This document shows, one piece after another, positions 55,070-63,940 of a stretch of DNA of 64,000 nucleotides. Position numbers and translations under genes: made by a program. The stretch is from contig NZ_PHUJ01000003.1 in NCBI RefSeq assembly GCF_002813375.1, positions 5,580,001 through 5,644,000 on the forward strand, read 5' to 3'. The DNA is from Pseudonocardia alni. Lineage in GTDB: Bacteria; Actinomycetota; Actinomycetes; Mycobacteriales; Pseudonocardiaceae. A model generated the notes under the pieces. That model saw nothing but the letters and a program-made list of their open reading frames with translations, had not been told where the DNA came from and did no database searches. Position 1 is the first letter of the stretch, and each line of letters begins with the position of its first letter.

Positions 55070-55966
55070 TCAGCTGGTGATGTCCTTGGTGCGGAACCGC
55101 CACGCCGCGAGCCCCAGGAACAGGCTCGCGTAGCAGACCGCGGAGAACGTCCCGTAGGTCATGTCCGACCAGTCGACGTCGGTCGCCAGCAGCGCCGACC
55201 AGGCGTCGCCGTAGTGCGTCGGGAGGAAGTCCCGGATGAGTCCCAGGTCCTCGATCTGGTCGATGATCTGGGAGACGATCGAGGCCATCACCGCGCCGCC
55301 GACCGCGCCCAGCGGGGCGTCGGTGCTCACCGAGAGCAGCAGCGCCAGCCCGGCCACCCAGCTCAGCTGCACGGTCACGTACAGCGCGCCGAGCATCACC
55401 CGCCCGGCCGCGCTCCAGAACGGCAGCGACTCCCCGATCGGCGAGACCAGGTCGCCGGTGCCGTAGGCGATCGCCCCCACCACGAGCGACGCGACCGGGA
55501 GCAGCAGCAGCGCCGCCACCGACAGCACCCCCGCGACGACGGCCTTCTGCCGCAGCAGCCGCGCCCGCGGCACCGGGACGGCCAGCAGGTAGCGCAGCGA
55601 CGACCACGACGCCTCCGAGGCCACCGTGTCGCCGAAGAACAGCGCGACCAGTACCACCAGCAGGAAGCTCGCCGATGCGAACAGCGTGAACACCGCGAAG
55701 TTCGCGGCGCTGCCCGACGCCAGGTCGACCAGGCTCGGGCCACGGGCCCCGGGCTCGTCGTCGCCGAGGGAGAACGCCGCCCACAGGATGATCGGCATCG
55801 CCACGACCAGCGCGAACGCGACCTGGGTGCGACGGCGCTGGAGCTGGCGGACCAGCTCGGTGCGCAGCGGCATGGTCCGTCCCGGGACGGCGGGCGGCGC
55901 GGCCCGGCCGGTCACGAGGTCGCCGACGTGCCCGCGGCGGGTCGAGAGCTGACGGTCGTCACTCAC
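55070..55966 (-). CDS. ABC-2 type permease partner of the hydrolase-ABC fusion
   Basis: A 298-residue membrane protein with about six helices after a 45-residue cytoplasmic start (TELVRQLQRRRTQVAFALVV). SWSSLRYLLAVPVPRARLLRQKAVV is the coupling-region pattern of BcrB/NatB-like ABC-2 permeases. The GTG overlaps the stop of the hydrolase-ABC gene (GTGA), so the two proteins are made together and probably form one transporter. Exported substrate unknown. Confidence 0.85.
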   Translation of the reverse strand: MSDDRQLSTRRGHVGDLVTGRAAPPAVPGRTMPLRTELVRQLQRRRTQVAFALVVAMPIILWAAFSLGDDEPGARGPSLVDLASGSAANFAVFTLFASASFLLVVLVALFFGDTVASEASWSSLRYLLAVPVPRARLLRQKAVVAGVLSVAALLLLPVASLVVGAIAYGTGDLVSPIGESLPFWSAAGRVMLGALYVTVQLSWVAGLALLLSVSTDAPLGAVGGAVMASIVSQIIDQIEDLGLIRDFLPTHYGDAWSALLATDVDWSDMTYGTFSAVCYASLFLGLAAWRFRTKDITS

Positions 55967-58900
55967 GAGGTACCTCCGACGTCGCGCCCCTCGGGGCCCA
56001 CCAGTTCCAGGAACGCGTCCTCCAGCCGCCCGCGCGGCCCGGCCGCGCTGACCGCGACCCCGCCGGACACCAGCGCGGCGACGGCGTCGGCGCGGGCGGT
56101 GCCGTCGAGGTGGGCGTGCACGACGCCCGGCTGGTCCCCGGTGACGACGTCGGTGACGCCGTCGAGGGCGGCCAGCACGGCCCGGGCCCGGCCGGTGTCG
56201 TCCACGGTGAACGACGAGCCGCCCCCGGCCGCCATCAGCTCGGCGACCGTCCCCGCGGCGACGACCGTGCCGCGGTGCATGACCACGACCTCCGAGCAGG
56301 TCTGCTCCACCTCCGACAGCAGGTGGCTGGACACGAGCACGGTCCGGCCGCCCGCGGCGTAGCGGCGCAGCAGCTCGCGCATCGCGTGGATCTGGGGCGG
56401 GTCGAGCCCGTTGGTGGGCTCGTCGAGGATGAGCAGCTCGGGCAGGCCCAGCATCGCCTGCGCGATCGCGAGGCGCTGCCGCATGCCCTGGGAGTAGGTG
56501 CCGACGCGGCGGTGCACCGAGTCGCCGAGCCCGGCGATCTCCAGCGTCTCCTCCATCCGCGCCTGCTCCGGCGGGCGGCCGGTGGCCTCCCAGTAAAGTC
56601 GCAGGTTCTCCGCGCCCGACAGGTGCGGCAGGAACCCGGGGCCCTCGACGAACGCGCCGATCCGGGACAGCACCGCCGCGCCGGGACGGACGGGGCGACC
56701 GAACGCCGTCATCGTCCCGGCGGTGGGCGCGATCAGGCCCATGAGCATGCGCAGGACGGTCGTCTTGCCGGCGCCGTTCGGGCCGAGCAGGCCGAGCACC
56801 GCACCGCGCGGCACGGTGAACGACACGTCCGACACCGCGGCGAACCCGTTGCGGTAGATCTTCGCCAGCCCGCGGACGACCAGCGGCGGCGCGTCGCCGG
56901 GCACGTCGTCGTCGGAGGGCTCGGTCCGGCGCGACCGCAGCCGCGCCACCAGCCACACCAGGAGTGCCGCGGCCAGCACCGCGGCGATCCCGAGCACCGG
57001 CCACAGCGGAACGGTCCCCGCCGACTCGGTGCGGCCGGGCACCTGGGGCACCGACAGCGCGGTGTCCCCGGCGAGCCCGACCCGCCACACCGCAGGGTCG
57101 GCGCCGGAGTCGTAGCCCTGGTCGGTCGTCGACAGCTGCACCAGCAGGCGGCTGCCCGCCTGCACCGGCGCGACGACGCCGGGCAGCGTCACCGTCGCCT
57201 CGGCGGGGGAGCCGTCGGCGGGGACGGCGATCCGCAGCGGTGCGACGGCGTTGCCCAGCAGCGTGCTGCGCCCGTCGGGGGTGAGCGTGGTGAGCGACGC
57301 GAACAGCACCGCGGTGTCCGGGGCGGGCTGTCCGGCGACCCGCGCGACGCGCACCGTCACCCGCGGCGCCCCGGAGGGCTGCATCGCGTCGGCGACGGGC
57401 GCGGTGAGGAACCGGGCGGACTGGCCCGGCGTCGTCAGGCCGGACAGGCCGCCGAGCGAGCCCAGCGACCCGAGCGCCGAGCCGAGGCCGGGCAGCGACG
57501 TGAGCGCCGACGGGTTCCCGCCCGGTGGGTGGACGACGGTCTGCTCGCCGCCGTCCAGGGGCAGCGCGGTCGTCGGGGCGGGTCCGGAGCCCGCGGTCAG
57601 GCCGGGGTAGGCCCCGGCGAGGACGGTCCGGCCGGTGGGGGTGTCGCCGCGGGTGCGGACGGTGCTGCGGACCTGGTAGGCGAAGGGGGCCTCGGCGAGA
57701 CCACCGGTGGTGCCCTGCGCCGCGGGCAGGCCGCGCAGGTGTTGGTCGAACCAGTCGGCGATGCGGGCGCGGACCTCGGAGTCGGGGCCGCCGCCGTCGT
57801 GGCCGCCGGCGAACCACAGCACCGACACCGGGGTGCCGTTCGCGGCGATCTGGCGGGCGTTCGCGTCGGCCTGGTCGAGGCCGAACAGGGTGTCCTGCTC
57901 GCCCTGGACCAGCAGTGTCGGTGCGGTGATCCGGTCGGTGACGGTCGCGGGGGAGGAGCGGCGGAGCAGCTCGGCCAGCTCCGGGGAGACGCGGCCGGTG
58001 CGGGCGGCCTCGCCGTAGGCGGCGCAGACGTCGCGGGCGAAGCGTCCGCAGATCGGGTCCGGCCCCGGCCGTGACGCGTCCTGTCTCCGGCCGGCGGCCG
58101 CGCCGGTCGCCGTGGCGTCTCCCGGACCGTCCGCGGTCCCGGCGGCGGTGCCCGGTCCCGCGGTGCCGCCGGCGCCGTCCGGCCCGGACACGCCCGCGGT
58201 GCCCGTGCCGGTGCCGTCGGAGGAGGACGCCCCGCCCGAGGACGAGCCGAAACCGCCCCCACCGCCGGAGCCGCCGGAGCCGGAGCCGCCGAGCCCTCCG
58301 GACGAGCCGGCGGCGGCACCCGCCGGTGAGTCCCCGCCCGCGGGCACCCGGCCACCGGAGCCGAAGAACACCCCGGCCCAGCCGCTCTTGAACACCCCGT
58401 CGCCGGCGCCCGCACCGGCCGCGGGCGTGCCCGGCGGCGTCGCACCGGCCGGGACGGCGTTGTTCGGGAACAGCGCCTGGCCCAGGTCGTTCCAGGTGAT
58501 CACCGGCACGATCGCGTCGATCCGCCGGTCGTACCCGGCCAGCAGCAGGGCGAGGCCACCGCCGTAGGACCCGCCGGTCACACCGACGCGGGGGTCGCCG
58601 TCGGCGTCGCGCTGCACGTCGGCGCGCGCGGCGAGGCGGTCCACCAGCCGCGACGCGTCGGCGACCTCGCGGTCGGGGTCGTCCAGCCCGATCGAGCCAC
58701 CGGAGGCGCCGAAACCGCGCGCGGTCCAGGTCTGCACCACGTAGCCGCGGGCGGCGAGCTCGCGGGCGTCGGAGTCGACGGAGGCCTTGCTGCCGCCGAA
58801 GCCGTGCGCCACCAGCACCGCGGGCGCGGGGGAGGCCGCGGTCGCCGAGGCGGGGACGTAGAGCGAGGTGTCCAGGTCGATCGTGCCCGGCTGCCCGGGG

Positions 58901-59094
58901 CCGGCCGGGACGGCGACCTCCTCCTCGCTCACGGCGACCGCGCCGCCGTCGTCGGCCGCCGCGGCGGGCGCCGGCGCGGCGACCGGGACACCGGGTGCGG
59001 CCGACGCGGCCGGGGCGAACGCCAGCACCAGGGCGGCGACCGTCGCCGCCACGATCGGGGTACGGACCCACCGGGTCCGGGGGAGCACGTGCAC
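55963..59094 (-). CDS. Fusion: secreted S15-type hydrolase, membrane helix, ABC ATPase
   Basis: A 1043-residue protein. A signal-anchor (about 10-33) is followed by an exported alpha/beta hydrolase of the CocE/X-Pro dipeptidyl-peptidase kind: AHGFGGSKAS, nucleophile Ser176 in GGSYGGG, Asp401 in QGEQD and His432 in AGGHDGG. A Gly/Ser/Ala-rich insertion (222-345) interrupts it. A beta-rich domain (about 500-690) and a membrane helix (VPLWPVLGIAAVLAAALLVW) follow. A cytoplasmic BcrA-type ABC ATPase ends the chain (about 735-1043; GPNGAGKTTVLRML, YSQGMRQR, LLILDEPTNGLDP). The GTG at 59094 lies seven bases past TAGTTT, hence leaderless. One uninterrupted frame, so a real fusion. Confidence 0.85.
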   Translation of the reverse strand: MHVLPRTRWVRTPIVAATVAALVLAFAPAASAAPGVPVAAPAPAAAADDGGAVAVSEEEVAVPAGPGQPGTIDLDTSLYVPASATAASPAPAVLVAHGFGGSKASVDSDARELAARGYVVQTWTARGFGASGGSIGLDDPDREVADASRLVDRLAARADVQRDADGDPRVGVTGGSYGGGLALLLAGYDRRIDAIVPVITWNDLGQALFPNNAVPAGATPPGTPAAGAGAGDGVFKSGWAGVFFGSGGRVPAGGDSPAGAAAGSSGGLGGSGSGGSGGGGGFGSSSGGASSSDGTGTGTAGVSGPDGAGGTAGPGTAAGTADGPGDATATGAAAGRRQDASRPGPDPICGRFARDVCAAYGEAARTGRVSPELAELLRRSSPATVTDRITAPTLLVQGEQDTLFGLDQADANARQIAANGTPVSVLWFAGGHDGGGPDSEVRARIADWFDQHLRGLPAAQGTTGGLAEAPFAYQVRSTVRTRGDTPTGRTVLAGAYPGLTAGSGPAPTTALPLDGGEQTVVHPPGGNPSALTSLPGLGSALGSLGSLGGLSGLTTPGQSARFLTAPVADAMQPSGAPRVTVRVARVAGQPAPDTAVLFASLTTLTPDGRSTLLGNAVAPLRIAVPADGSPAEATVTLPGVVAPVQAGSRLLVQLSTTDQGYDSGADPAVWRVGLAGDTALSVPQVPGRTESAGTVPLWPVLGIAAVLAAALLVWLVARLRSRRTEPSDDDVPGDAPPLVVRGLAKIYRNGFAAVSDVSFTVPRGAVLGLLGPNGAGKTTVLRMLMGLIAPTAGTMTAFGRPVRPGAAVLSRIGAFVEGPGFLPHLSGAENLRLYWEATGRPPEQARMEETLEIAGLGDSVHRRVGTYSQGMRQRLAIAQAMLGLPELLILDEPTNGLDPPQIHAMRELLRRYAAGGRTVLVSSHLLSEVEQTCSEVVVMHRGTVVAAGTVAELMAAGGGSSFTVDDTGRARAVLAALDGVTDVVTGDQPGVVHAHLDGTARADAVAALVSGGVAVSAAGPRGRLEDAFLELVGPEGRDVGGTS

Positions 59095-59328
59095 GTCATC
59101 GAAACTACGCAGATCGCCGCGACCGCGTCGCCGGGCGGCGGGTGCGTCCCGCCACGCCCGCCGCACGGCACCGGTCCGGCACGGGAACCGGCACCGGCCC
59201 CGGCGAACCGGGCACCCGGGATGAATGCCGCACCAACGGCGCGTGACCCCCGGGTGTCGCCGGGCGTTCACCCGACGTTCCGCCGTGCAACGCCGACCGG
59301 AAGCCGTGGCCCGGCACCGTCACCGGGT

Positions 59329-61023
59329 GTGAGCGTCAACCCCACCGGAGAGACCCCCGGCGTCGGTGTCCCGCGGGCACTCGCCGTCGACATGACGATC
59401 GCCGACCAGCAGGACTGGCTCGCCGCCTTCCTGCGACGCCACCCCGTCAGCCGGCGCACCGCGCTGCGCGGCGGCGCCGGAGTCCTGGCGACGCTCGCGG
59501 CGTCCGGGTCGTCCTGGGCGCGCGGGGTGGCCGCGGCCGCCGCACCCGCGCCGGTCACCGTCGTCGGACGGCACCTGGCCTACGGGCCCGACCCGGCCCG
59601 CTCGATGTCGTTCTCCGGGGAGCTGACCGCGGCCCCGCCGCCCGGCCGGATGGTCGTCGACGTCGGCACCGACTCCGGGTTCGGGCTCACCCTCCCGGTG
59701 CAGGTCCGCCCCCTGGAGAGCCTCGTCCCGCAGGTCGACGGCAGCATCCGCGGCACCCGCCAGTGGTTCGCCCACGCCCGCGCCGACGGCCTCGCCCCCG
59801 GCAGCTGCTACGTCTACCGGTTCCGCATCGAGGGTCCCGGCGGAACGACGACGACCACCGCCACCAGCACGTTCCGGACGGCCGCACCCCGCGGCACCCG
59901 GCACCGGTTCACCTTCACCGCCTTCGCCGACCAGGGCGTGAGCACCGGTGGGGAGCCGAACCACTACAAGCCCGACGACACCCACCGCAGCCCGGCGCCC
60001 GCGGAGGCGCTGACCGCGCTCGTCGCCGCGGAGGCACCCGCGTTCCACCTGCTCGCCGGCGACATCTGCTACGCCGACCCCTCCGGCGCCGGCAGGCCCG
60101 TCCGCAACGGCGCCCCGCAGGACGACGAGGCCCACGACAGCTTCGACCCCACCGTCTGGAGCACCTACTTCGCCGCGATCGAACGCTCGGCCGCGTCGAC
60201 CCCGTGGATGTTCGCCACCGGCAACCACGACATGGAGGCGCTCTACGACCTGAACCGGGCCGACGGCCCCGCGCACGGCTACGCCGGTCACGCCGCCCGG
60301 CTCGCGCTGCCCGGGACCGGCCCCCGCGGCTGCCCCTCGGTGTACGCGTTCACCCACGGCACCGTCGGGGTCGTCAGCGTGGACGCCAACGACCTCTCCA
60401 CCGAGATCCCGACCAACGCCGGCTACTCCGGCGGGACCCAGCTGACCTGGCTGGAGCGGACCCTGGCCGGCTGGCGCGCCGACCCGGACATCGAGTGGAT
60501 CGTGCTGTTCTTCCACCACTGCGCGTTCGCCACCTCGGGCTCGCACGCCTCCGACGCCGGGGTGCGACGGGCGCTGGCGCCGCTGTGCGACCGCTACCGG
60601 GTCGACCTGTGCGTGCAGGGCCACAACCACCAGTACGAGCGCACCGACCCCATCCGCGACGGCCGCCCCACCCGCCCGGCCCCGGACCGCTCCACCGTCC
60701 ACCCGGAGACCGACGGCACCACCTATGTCTGCGTCGGCTCCGGCGGACGGCCCCGCTACCGCTGGCAGCCCGGCGAGACCGACAGCGTCCGCGGCCACGA
60801 GACCGAGCAGGCGCCGGTCACGAGCTTCCTGGCCGGCCCCGACGACCAGAAGCAGGCCGAGACCGTCACCTGGTCGCGGACCCGCTACCTCGGCTACGCC
60901 TACCTGCGCTGCGCGGTGGCCCCCGGTTCCGGCGGCACCGACTCCCGTCTCGTCGTGCACGCGATCACCGACCTCGGCGAGGAGATCGACATGGTCCGGC
61001 TCAGCCGTCGCGCGCGCCGCTGA
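59329..61023 (+). CDS. Tat-exported purple-acid-phosphatase-like enzyme
   Basis: A 564-residue metallophosphatase. A twin-arginine signal (VSRRTALRGGAGVLATLAAS) leads to an Fn3-like N-terminal domain and a catalytic domain. Purple acid phosphatase ligands can be seen: DxG in FADQG, GDxxY in AGDICYAD, GNHD in TGNHDM, the HH in LFFHHCAF and GHxH in QGHNHQYER. It should hydrolyse phosphomonoesters outside the cell, with a two-metal centre loaded before export. The GTG at 59329 is used; the ATG at 59392 would put the RR at residues 22-23 and is also credible. Divergent from the hydrolase-ABC operon. Confidence 0.85.
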   Translation: MSVNPTGETPGVGVPRALAVDMTIADQQDWLAAFLRRHPVSRRTALRGGAGVLATLAASGSSWARGVAAAAAPAPVTVVGRHLAYGPDPARSMSFSGELTAAPPPGRMVVDVGTDSGFGLTLPVQVRPLESLVPQVDGSIRGTRQWFAHARADGLAPGSCYVYRFRIEGPGGTTTTTATSTFRTAAPRGTRHRFTFTAFADQGVSTGGEPNHYKPDDTHRSPAPAEALTALVAAEAPAFHLLAGDICYADPSGAGRPVRNGAPQDDEAHDSFDPTVWSTYFAAIERSAASTPWMFATGNHDMEALYDLNRADGPAHGYAGHAARLALPGTGPRGCPSVYAFTHGTVGVVSVDANDLSTEIPTNAGYSGGTQLTWLERTLAGWRADPDIEWIVLFFHHCAFATSGSHASDAGVRRALAPLCDRYRVDLCVQGHNHQYERTDPIRDGRPTRPAPDRSTVHPETDGTTYVCVGSGGRPRYRWQPGETDSVRGHETEQAPVTSFLAGPDDQKQAETVTWSRTRYLGYAYLRCAVAPGSGGTDSRLVVHAITDLGEEIDMVRLSRRARR

Positions 61024-61114
61024 ACCGGACACACAGGACGACTTCCGGCCCCGACCGGGTGCCCTGGGTCACCCCGACTCGCCATGCAACGGACCAGGGA
61101 GGACACTTCACCTA

Positions 61115-61249
61115 CCGCAGGGGAGTATCCCTACCGCGGTGGTGTCGTCAGCACGGTGTCGTCGCGAGCGTGGTTCGCGAGCGGACCCGGCACCACCGGC
61201 CACACCCGGCAGCCGCAGGAACGGGCTGCCGTGGCGGGAGAGACCTCGG
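61115..61249 (+). promoter_or_regulatory. Candidate yybP-ykoY (Mn2+) riboswitch
   Basis: The 260-base leader of terC holds AGGGGAGTA (61119-61127) and, 110 bases on, GAGAGACCTCGGG. These match the conserved 5' and 3' strands of the yybP-ykoY manganese riboswitch. The closing stem pairs CCG(C)AGG (61115-61121) with CCTCGG (61244-61249). Between them are two hairpin-capable arms. Regulation of TerC-family genes by this riboswitch is well known. The platform between 61250 and the GTG at 61284 contains the GGAGG ribosome site, so translational control is plausible. Confidence 0.72.
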
Positions 61250-61283
61250 GCTGTCTGATGCTGCCCTGGTCTGGAGGAACTTC

Positions 61284-62378
61284 GTGAACGTGCCCCTGTG
61301 GGTCTGGCTGGTCACCATCATCGGATTCGTGCTGGTGATCGGCGCGGACCTGTGGCTCAACGACCACAAGCCGCACGCCGTGACCCTGGGTGAGGTCACC
61401 CGCTGGGTCGTCTTCTACGTGGTGCTGGCCGTCGCGTTCGGCTGCGGGGTCTGGTTCTTCTCCGGCGGCACCTACGCCGGCGAGTTCTTCGCCGGCTACC
61501 TGACCGAGTACTCGTTGTCGGTCGACAACCTGTTCGTCTTCCTCATCATCATGTCCGCGTTCAAGGTGCCGGTCCTCCACCAGCACCGGGTGCTGCTGGT
61601 CGGCATCGTGATCGCGCTGATCATGCGGAGCATCTTCATCGCCGCGGGCGCGGCGGTCATCGACCGCTTCAGCTGGGTGTTCTTCCTCTTCGCCGCGTTC
61701 CTCGTCTACACCGCCGTCTCGCTGGTCAAGCAGGCTGCCGGCGGCGACGACGAGGAGTGGAAGGAGGGCCGGGTCCTGCAGTGGGTCCGCAAGGCCTTCC
61801 CGGTCACCGACGACTACCACGGCGCCAAGACCACCGTGAAGATCGACGGCAAGCGCTGGCTGACCCCGATGCTGATCGTGATGATCGCCATCGGCGTCAC
61901 CGACATCATGTTCGCCCTGGACTCGATCCCGGCGATCTTCGGCCTCACCCAGGAGCCCTACCTCGTCTTCACCGCGAACGCGTTCGCGCTGATGGGGCTG
62001 CGCCAGCTCTACTTCCTGCTCGGCGGGCTGCTCAACAAGCTCGTCTTCCTGTCCTACGGCCTCGCGGTGCTGCTCGCCTTCATCGGCGTCAAGCTCGCCC
62101 TGCACGCCCTGCACGAGAACGAGCTGCCCTTCATCAACGGCGGGCAGCCGGTGCCTGTCCCCGAGGTCGGGATCGGACTCTCGCTCGGCGTCATCGTCGG
62201 CGTCCTCGCGGTCACCACGGTCGCCAGCCTCGTCGCGGTCCGGATGAAGCCCGAGCTGGCCGAGCAGGGCAGCGGGATCACCGCGCCGCCGCTGGCCCGC
62301 ACCAAGGAGGAGGCCGCGCGGATCGAGGCCCAGGACGAGCAGGCCGACCACCGGGTGAGCGCGCCCCCGCGCGACTGA
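61284..62378 (+). CDS. TerC-family membrane protein (putative Mn2+ exporter)
   Basis: A 364-residue TerC protein with about nine helices. The conserved acidic sites are in LSVDNLFVFLIIMSAF and TDIMFALDSIPAIFG, and NAFALMGLRQLYFLLGG is typical. TerC/Alx relatives export manganese, at times loading exported metalloenzymes. The candidate Mn riboswitch upstream supports this role here. The GTG follows GGAGG. The C-terminal 60 residues are polar. Its upstream neighbour encodes a secreted metalloenzyme. Confidence 0.92.
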   Translation: MNVPLWVWLVTIIGFVLVIGADLWLNDHKPHAVTLGEVTRWVVFYVVLAVAFGCGVWFFSGGTYAGEFFAGYLTEYSLSVDNLFVFLIIMSAFKVPVLHQHRVLLVGIVIALIMRSIFIAAGAAVIDRFSWVFFLFAAFLVYTAVSLVKQAAGGDDEEWKEGRVLQWVRKAFPVTDDYHGAKTTVKIDGKRWLTPMLIVMIAIGVTDIMFALDSIPAIFGLTQEPYLVFTANAFALMGLRQLYFLLGGLLNKLVFLSYGLAVLLAFIGVKLALHALHENELPFINGGQPVPVPEVGIGLSLGVIVGVLAVTTVASLVAVRMKPELAEQGSGITAPPLARTKEEAARIEAQDEQADHRVSAPPRD

Positions 62379-62405
62379 GACCCACGCTCCCCGGCGGGCA
62401 GTCCT

Positions 62406-62444
62406 CCGCCCCGGCGTCCGGTTCCCCATCGGACACCGGGGCGG
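62406..62444 (+). terminator. terC terminator hairpin
   Basis: A 15-bp stem with one mismatch (62406-62420 with 62430-62444) and a 9-base loop shortly after the terC stop. The exchanger gene downstream therefore likely has its own promoter in 62445-62570. Confidence 0.7.
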
Positions 62445-62580
62445 ACCCGTGTCCGGCGCTGCTCGGCGCGCCGTGCCTGTGACCTGCGGAGACGATGGCG
62501 TCTGCCGTGTCAAGTGTTGCATCGGCAGGTGATCCCGTTCACGATCAGTTGATCCTGGCATCGTAGCGAGGGGCTGATGC

Positions 62581-63687
62581 ATGATCCCGGTGATCGAATT
62601 CGTTCTGGGTGTCGCCGTGCTGGTCTACAGCGCGGAGAAGCTCATCGGCTATCTGGTCGGGGTGGCGAGCCGGTGGGCGATCTCGCTGTTCCTGATCGCC
62701 GTCGTCTTCACCGGGATCGAGTTCGACGATCTCGCGTTCGGCGTCGTGCTCAACATGGAGGACCTCAGCGACGTCGCGCTCGGCGCCGTCATCGGCACCA
62801 CGATCGCGCTGACCGGCGTCGTGCTGGCGCTCGCCGCGATCATCGCGCCGACCCGCGTCGAGGTCCCGCGCGACTACCTCGCGCTCTACGTCGCCGCTCC
62901 GGTGGTGATGTTCCTGCTCGCGCTCGGCGGGCTGCTCACCGCCGGCACCGGCGTCGTGCTGATCCTGTTGTTCGTCGCCTTCGTCGGCTGGATCGCCTAC
63001 CGCGAGTACTCGGCCCGGCGGCCCGTCTGGCGCAACGCTGAGGTCTACGAGCAGCTGGAGAAGGCCGGTGTCGGCGCGGGCGGGACCGCGACGGCGTCGG
63101 CCGGGTCGGGTGGGCCTGGTGGTCCGCCCCGGGCCGACGCGGCCACCGGACCGCCCGGCTTCCGGCTGCCCGAGGACCTGCGCGTCGACGACGGCTTCCT
63201 CGCCGCGCGCGCACAGCCGCCCGGCCGGACGATCCTGTTCGCCGTGATCGCGCTGATCGGGCTCGTCGTCGGCGCGCTGATCGCCGGGCAGGGCACCGAG
63301 GGCATCCTCGAGACCTGGGCGATCAGCGGCACGGTCTTCGGGGTCACGATCGCGACCCTGGCCCTGTCGCTGGAGGACCTCCTGATCACCGTCGAGCCCG
63401 CCCGCCGCGGCGCGCCGGAGATCGCCGTCGCCAACGTCCTGGGCAGCGTCGTGTTCTCGGTGACCGGCAAGCTCGGGGTGATCCTGCTGGTCGGCGGGGC
63501 GATCGTGGTCGACCCGACGGCCCTGGTCTGGCACCTGCCCGTGCTGCTCGCGCTCACCGTGCTCTCCGCGGTGTTCCTCGGAACCGGGCGGATCCGCCGC
63601 TGGCACGGCGTGGTGCTGCTCGCGCTCTACATCGCCTACTTCGTCATCAGCCTCACCGTCTTCGGCGGCGTCCCCGTCGACGACTGA
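62581..63687 (+). CDS. Cation/calcium exchanger family (CaCA) antiporter
   Basis: A 368-residue membrane protein with two repeated halves. The alpha repeats read EFDDLAFGVVLNMEDLSD with GTTIALTGVVLALA, and ATLALSLEDLLITVEPARRG with ANVLGSVVFSVTGK. They carry acidic residues where Na+/Ca2+ and Ca2+/H+ exchangers bind the ion. A cytoplasmic Gly/Ala-rich loop (about 160-210) joins the halves. It should expel Ca2+ or another divalent ion. Strikingly rich in acidic residues in the pore motifs. The ATG follows GAGGGGC. Placed between terC and the Asp-rich small gene. Confidence 0.82.
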   Translation: MIPVIEFVLGVAVLVYSAEKLIGYLVGVASRWAISLFLIAVVFTGIEFDDLAFGVVLNMEDLSDVALGAVIGTTIALTGVVLALAAIIAPTRVEVPRDYLALYVAAPVVMFLLALGGLLTAGTGVVLILLFVAFVGWIAYREYSARRPVWRNAEVYEQLEKAGVGAGGTATASAGSGGPGGPPRADAATGPPGFRLPEDLRVDDGFLAARAQPPGRTILFAVIALIGLVVGALIAGQGTEGILETWAISGTVFGVTIATLALSLEDLLITVEPARRGAPEIAVANVLGSVVFSVTGKLGVILLVGGAIVVDPTALVWHLPVLLALTVLSAVFLGTGRIRRWHGVVLLALYIAYFVISLTVFGGVPVDD

Positions 63688-63706
63688 GCACCCGCAGGGA
63701 GGGACG

Positions 63707-63940
63707 ATGCTCACCAAGAACCGGATGTCCGCGGCGCTCGCCGTCGTGGCCGCCGTGATCGGCCTGGTCCTCGTGTTCGGCACGGGCGAGGGCGCCCGCG
63801 ACGACGATGACGACGACGCGGGCGGCCCGCCGGCGGTCACGCAGATGGACGACGACGACCGGCAGCCGCCGGCCGTCCCGGCGCAGCAGGACCCGGCGCC
63901 GGGGCAGCAGCAGCAGCCCGACGACGATGACGACGACTGA
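63707..63940 (+). CDS. Small Asp-rich one-helix membrane protein
   Basis: A 77-residue protein: a short basic start, one membrane or signal helix (about 8-26, SAALAVVAAVIGLVLVFG), then a disordered outside tail with three Asp runs (DDDDDD at 32-37, DDDD near 48, DDDDDD at the C-terminus) separated by Pro/Gln stretches. A good GGAGGG site lies before the ATG, and it starts 20 bases after the exchanger stop, so it is probably co-transcribed. Poly-Asp outside the membrane suggests low-affinity Ca2+ or Mn2+ binding. No known family recognised. Confidence 0.7.
   Translation: MLTKNRMSAALAVVAAVIGLVLVFGTGEGARDDDDDDAGGPPAVTQMDDDDRQPPAVPAQQDPAPGQQQQPDDDDDD

Follow-up and report, generated by a model that had tools for sequence, protein, structure and literature searches.

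The window analysed here computationally is a 64,000-nucleotide stretch of the Pseudonocardia alni genome (contig NZ_PHUJ01000003.1, positions 5,580,001 to 5,644,000 of the forward strand), and the locus of interest lies close to its 3' end. Four consecutive genes on the same strand encode a metallophosphoesterase, a TerC-family protein, a cation exchanger of the CaCA type and a 77-amino-acid protein (Table 1), and a leader of 260 nucleotides separates the end of the metallophosphoesterase gene from the start of terC. A first-pass annotation, made from the letters of the sequence, had named terC, the exchanger and the small protein and had placed a yybP-ykoY riboswitch in the leader; all that it stated about the sequence of the region holds. 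TerC gives 167 bits with the Pfam TerC family and passes the cut-off of TIGR03718, the Alx subfamily (365.3 versus 246.4 bits). No relatives of TerC were found in the PDB. The exchanger passes the PF01699 (Na_Ca_ex) cut-off (104.4 versus 24.9 bits) in two stretches that correspond to both repeats, and the open reading frame at 63707-63940 encodes, as had been read, a single hydrophobic segment and three runs of Asp (DDDDDD, DDDD, and DDDDDD).

The leader carries both conserved strands of the yybP-ykoY family, AGGGGAGTA at 61119-61127 and GAGAGACCTCGGG at 61238-61250, together with the closing stem (CCG(c)AGG / CCUCGG), in which a single C is bulged. Leaders of this kind were found at 77 of the 80 actinobacterial terC loci sampled, 76 by motif and one (L083) added by a covariance model, R1, that was made from 45 distinct actinobacterial terC leaders (alignment A2). 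R1 also detects two leaders on which it was not trained. One belongs to a second terC gene in this genome and scores 64.6 bits (L003 2545-2660, or G000:C3:1579164-1579279, minus strand), and the other is that of alx in E. coli, with 42.9 bits (E = 2.7e-8). The leader is thus homologous by computation to that of alx. A third terC of the same genome (L004) has no such riboswitch, and the P2-bearing E. coli mntP leader was missed by R1.

The first-pass annotation had proposed a search with the Rfam family model RF00080. In Rfam 15 this model gave zero matches in the window leader, even at E ≤ 10, and at its gathering score none in 14 related terC loci, which weighs against the identification. We judged this to be a failure of the model, and the missing match to be uninformative, because RF00080 also leaves the E. 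coli alx leader unmatched at E ≤ 10 (L115 5374-5505) and gives the mntP leader of E. coli 41.6 bits, under its own cut-off of 45. The family model seems too narrow, and a match at its gathering score, which the leader does not give, is a criterion of the database and not of biology and was not taken as defining. The R1 model, the covariation described below and the TIGR03718 match of the downstream gene together support a yybP-ykoY-type riboswitch ahead of an Alx-type terC.

The 45 aligned leaders share a consensus fold that consists of helices P1.1 and P1.2, an arm P3 with internal loop L3, and an arm P4, joined in a three-way junction without P2. With P1.1 in its canonical register, 93.4% of the alignment cells are paired, 153 two-sided changes occur, and 18 of 25 pairs change on both sides; none of 500 shuffles comes near this result, and six slid versions reach 37-52%. 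An alternative P1 register given by RNAalifold (GGGG/CCUC) was dropped for the canonical GGAGG/CCUCC, which adds compensatory changes. Exchanges occur at two of the four P1.2 pairs (C-G/U-A, 24/21; U-A/C-G, 40/3) and two-sided changes at eight of the nine P3.1 pairs, and L3 (CGTCA..ACG) is invariant or nearly so. Features that mark the family are present, namely the L1 strands GGAGUA and AGACCU closed by P1.1, which covaries in the family and in the window contains the bulged C, and a P3 arm with the L3 motif CGUCA..CG..CCGG, which aligns to that of E. coli alx. A four-way junction with P2 is absent from the consensus, but P2 is not required, because members with a three-way junction have been described (PMC9495176). 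When the complete leader of the window was folded thermodynamically, the result did not differ from shuffles (z -0.4), and so the structure rests on covariation.

The relation between terC and the genes behind it was judged from the intergenic region and from gene order in relatives. The gap between terC and the exchanger gene (≈200 bp) contains a hairpin (-49.6 kcal/mol for 62385-62460, z = -4.1) that is also readable in L009 and L087. These two loci and the window, from three close species, are the only ones in which the exchanger adjoins terC. In P. endophytica (L007), two genes lie between terC and the exchanger-peptide pair, and in L005 the exchanger is about 3 kb from terC. Although terC is not adjacent to it, the L007 exchanger has the motif GTGTTGCATnGnCACGTG in its upstream region in common with the window. 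No R1 leader stands directly before the exchanger at any of 32 exchanger loci searched, and within the genus neither an R1 leader nor GGGAGTA occurs at that place. The hairpin, the limited adjacency and the upstream motif kept in L007 make two modules likelier than one, and we conclude that two independent modules most probably lie side by side, the Mn2+ riboswitch with TerC and the exchanger with the Asp-rich peptide. In the second module, 3' of the terminator-like hairpin, the exchanger would be made together with the small membrane protein.

The first-pass annotation had instead read the riboswitch and the three genes as one metal-homeostasis unit, but the survey of gene order that it had suggested confines the adjacency of terC and exchanger to three close species, and neither the intergenic hairpin nor the L007 arrangement fits that unit. 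We consider it unlikely that a single Mn2+-controlled operon exists in which the riboswitch governs terC, exchanger, and peptide, with Mn2+/Ca2+ exported or buffered by all three. Such an operon would agree with the row of genes on the same strand, with R1-type leaders that elsewhere stand before a CaCA exchanger (L148) and before a GDT1 transporter (L150), and with the GDT1 genes behind some exchanger relatives; moreover, a hairpin without a U tract may leak, so that read-through from terC is possible, which counts against a separation into two modules. However, it would have to span the hairpin-bearing gap, which is adjoined by both genes in the three close species only, and it accounts neither for the L007 pair, set two genes off behind an upstream region of its own, nor for the lack of R1 leaders directly before the 32 exchanger loci.

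The link between exchanger and peptide within the second module is borne out by two arrangements. Peptide relatives with a TKDR or TKNR start, a hydrophobic segment and Asp runs lie directly 3' of the exchanger, at 43-75% identity, in seven genomes that represent two genera; four are Pseudonocardia genomes, and the other three belong to the same family. Ten other exchangers from Pseudonocardia themselves end in a fused Asp-rich C-terminal tail (..GIEAPAVPGAPDDD), and APAVPGxPDDDDD is common to the separate peptide of L007 and the fused tails. In the exchanger tree, the separate-peptide and fused-tail arrangements form distinct supported groups (95/85 and 100/99). Because the Asp-rich segment recurs, both separate and independently fused, a functional link between exchanger and Asp-rich segment is supported. 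It is improbable, in our view, that the peptide is encoded by a low-complexity reading frame, generic or without function, which hitch-hikes behind the exchanger. GAC repeats easily give Asp runs, which in a GC-rich genome are low-complexity sequence and might lack specificity, Pfam and TIGR profile scans gave no family match for the peptide, and the two close exchangers at L089 and L090 have no such peptide behind them; these points weigh against a function. That reading is opposed by the conservation of the peptide's start, hydrophobic segment and Asp runs across two genera and by a comparable segment that, in an independent clade, forms part of the exchanger.

CaCA proteins have their C-terminus outside, and membrane segments follow the positive-inside rule. 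From this topology and this rule, we infer that the acidic segment is outside in both arrangements. The basic N-terminus of the peptide would lie inside and its Asp-rich tail outside, beside the exit of the exchanger, where it might bind or buffer the expelled cation, much as the first-pass annotation had supposed. The nature of that cation is less apparent from the exchanger itself, which misses the cut-off of TIGR00367 (Ca2+/Na+ antiporter; 98.2 versus 179.65 bits). In its second repeat, Asp stands at the position of Glu213 and Ser at that of Asp240 of NCX_Mj, where Asp240 is the Ca2+-binding Asp of the second half. Owing to this Ser, the exchanger does not have the Ca2+-coordinating acidic residues in both repeats that characterise TIGR00367. 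Its first repeat reads GIEFDD, as in all relatives with a listed first half (aligned by eye). Because the second-half Asp of NCX_Mj is replaced by Ser, transport of Ca2+ or Mn2+ by the exchanger is not implied, and any metal specificity of exchanger and peptide is putative.

One hypothesis that would unite these observations, and that we put forward as possible though not as the expected outcome, is that a CaCA subfamily (GIEFDD...SLED...GSVVFS, without the Asp240 of NCX_Mj) gained an outside Asp-rich segment at least twice, as a separate anchored peptide and as a fused C-terminal tail, and that this segment has a part in releasing or capturing the cation, possibly Mn2+, that the exchanger transports. 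We found no report of an Asp-rich exchanger partner in the literature, and the exchanger/Asp module is possibly undescribed. Similar membrane-anchored Asp-rich peptides, recognised by eye, occur in another genus of the family, one near a GDT1-like gene (L158) and one behind an apparent SLC13-type transporter (L159). Judging from these sequences, the peptide may be a general partner of transporters. At L099, L101, and L106, fused-tail relatives of the exchanger are followed by a gene for a GDT1 (UPF0016) Mn2+/Ca2+ transporter, and these GDT1 proteins have an Asp run of their own in the central loop.

How the riboswitch might act on terC is best seen outside Pseudonocardia. In 65 non-Pseudonocardia leaders, the 3' strand of P1.1 is mostly complementary to 7-8 bases of the Shine-Dalgarno (SD) sequence, with covariation at the flanking positions (CCUCCGAC/GUCGGAGG, CCUCCGGU/ACCGGAGG, and CCUUCGGA/UCCGGAGG). 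This anti-SD/SD covariation was reached in 0 of 2000 permutations, in a test that ignores relatedness. The mean unpaired fraction of the SD sequence is 0.44 with P1.1 enforced (ON) compared to 0.08 with the P1.1 5' strand barred (OFF). The model predicts that translation is ON with metal in most genera. The OFF hairpin of the window itself was not above shuffled controls, which speaks against the same switch here; for this reason, the mechanism proposed for this species is taken from its relatives, and by analogy with them the direction of switching in Pseudonocardia would be the same. In the proposed mechanism, L1 and L3 of the three-way junction (P1.2, P3, and P4) would dock and hold Mg2+ and Mn2+ as in solved members, and metal binding would stabilise P1.1. 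When no metal is bound, a downstream hairpin would capture the 3' strand of P1.1, and in most actinobacteria this hairpin would include the SD sequence. TerC would then be produced only at high Mn2+ and would export Mn2+ or load it onto secreted proteins.

By analogy with characterised members, among them alx, which is Mn2+-activated (PMC9603457), the leader very probably senses Mn2+, also in Pseudonocardia. The genes that follow such leaders elsewhere point the same way. In a sample of 149 Actinomycetota genomes, R1 has matches in 34 and RF00080 has none above its cut-off. The first gene after 29 R1 leaders encodes TerC in 17 cases and a P-type cation ATPase in eight; the remaining single cases are GDT1/UPF0016, a CaCA exchanger, an M50 protease and another protein. 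Judged by sequence, this gene set closely resembles the regulon known for Mn2+ riboswitches. A yybP-ykoY relative with a changed ligand (Ca2+, another transition metal, or pH), and hence no Mn2+ switch in the genus, is the least likely of the alternatives, because the L1, L3 and AGACCU motifs are invariant or nearly so and the downstream genes fit a Mn2+ regulon, even though P2 is absent, P1.1 of Pseudonocardia has a bulge or mismatch, the closest characterised match, alx of E. coli, responds to alkaline pH as well (PMC9603457), and a three-way-junction member from Streptococcus also binds Ca2+ (PMC9495176). As a separate observation, the gene behind an R1-type leader at L145 1501-2827 encodes an M50 site-2 protease that contains a CBS domain, which is unusual for a Mn2+ riboswitch.

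The first-pass annotation had further suggested that the secreted phosphatase upstream might receive metal. This protein has a putative Tat-like signal (SRRTALRGG followed by a hydrophobic stretch), and among the 80 relatives L007 and L009 are the only two with its gene close to terC. Proteins exported by Tat are usually folded and loaded with metal beforehand. TerC proteins of B. subtilis, by contrast, work with Sec (PMC10550928), and delivery of metal by TerC to the phosphatase is therefore unlikely. Farther upstream, on the minus strand at 55963-59271, one long open reading frame appears from its translation to combine an alpha/beta-hydrolase-like part with an ABC transporter ATPase part, and it is followed by a reading frame for an apparent permease.

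Table 1. Features of the terC and exchanger locus, in positions of the window.
Feature	Position	Strand	Basis and remarks
Upstream secreted metallophosphoesterase	59392..61023	+	PF00149 6e-12, calcineurin-like; not part of either module
Mn2+ (yybP-ykoY) riboswitch aptamer, three-way-junction form	61114..61252	+	R1 model 80.3 bits (leader in training set); covariation
P1.1 5' strand CCG(c)AGG	61115..61121	+	Pairs with CCUCGG 61244-61249; A2 columns 4-8 / 171-175; bulged C by eye
L1 5' side GGAGUA	61122..61127	+	GGAGTA invariant in 45 leaders; Mg2+/Mn2+ pocket in known members
P1.2 5' strand UCCC	61128..61131	+	Pairs with GGGA 61236-61239
P3 arm	61137..61198	+	P3.1 61137-61145 / 61190-61198; L3 CGUCA..CACG / CCGG; variable P3.2
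P4 arm GGCC...GGC, variable loop	61199..61235	+	Two-sided changes at all four P4 pairs
L1 3' side GAGA and P1.1 3' strand CCUCGG	61240..61249	+	AGACCT invariant in 45 leaders
Predicted alternative (OFF) hairpin AGACC..GGGC / GCCC..GGUCU	61241..61272	+	Folding; abuts ribosome-binding site; tentative
terC Shine-Dalgarno sequence GGAGG	61273..61277	+	6 nt before GTG 61284
terC, Alx/TerC family, 364 aa	61284..62378	+	PF03741 6e-49, 167 bits; TIGR03718 365.3 bits
Strong hairpin 3' of terC, terminator-like without U tract	62405..62445	+	Folding; readable also in L009 and L087
Divergent CaCA-type exchanger, 368 aa	62581..63687	+	Na_Ca_ex 7e-30; nearest solved relative NCX_Mj
Membrane-anchored Asp-rich peptide, 77 aa, start MLTKNR	63707..63940	+	Relatives behind exchanger in six other genomes

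The riboswitch-TerC module is of an already known kind, in a form missed by current Rfam. It resembles the E. coli alx member of the yybP-ykoY family in its L1 and L3 motifs, in P1.1, P1.2, P3, and P4, and in its place before an Alx/TerC gene. Unlike RF00080 and alx, the actinobacterial leaders have GC-rich arms and no P2, and in most of them the anti-SD sequence is the P1.1 3' strand; the P2 hairpin and four-way junction of the L. lactis crystal structure do not occur in them. The only report of an actinobacterial terC riboswitch that we found is an RNA-seq listing for C. glutamicum, in which the leader of cg2157 (terC) appears with 49.1 bits from an older RF00080 (PMC3890552); this leader too belongs to an actinobacterial terC and differs in genus. 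The Mn2+ riboswitch of S. pneumoniae mgtA differs by controlling a P-type Ca2+/Mn2+ ATPase. Because RF00080 passes in none of the 149 genomes and R1 matches 34, Mn2+ control is under-annotated in Actinomycetota, where the current Rfam model overlooks the form shared with E. coli alx. By its TIGR03718 match, TerC may function like E. coli Alx, which is annotated as a Mn2+ exporter, or like MeeF and MeeY of B. subtilis, which metalate exported proteins (PMC10550928).

The pairing of the exchanger with an Asp-rich segment is the least familiar part of the locus, and a CaCA exchanger repeatedly paired with an acidic extracytoplasmic segment offers a testable clue to ion handling. The exchanger resembles NCX_Mj (PDB 3v5s/5hxc) in having Na_Ca_ex domains in both halves, with an alignment over the second half, and differs from NCX_Mj and TIGR00367 in Ser for Asp240, in Asp for Glu213, and in GIEFDD for GTSLPE in the first half.

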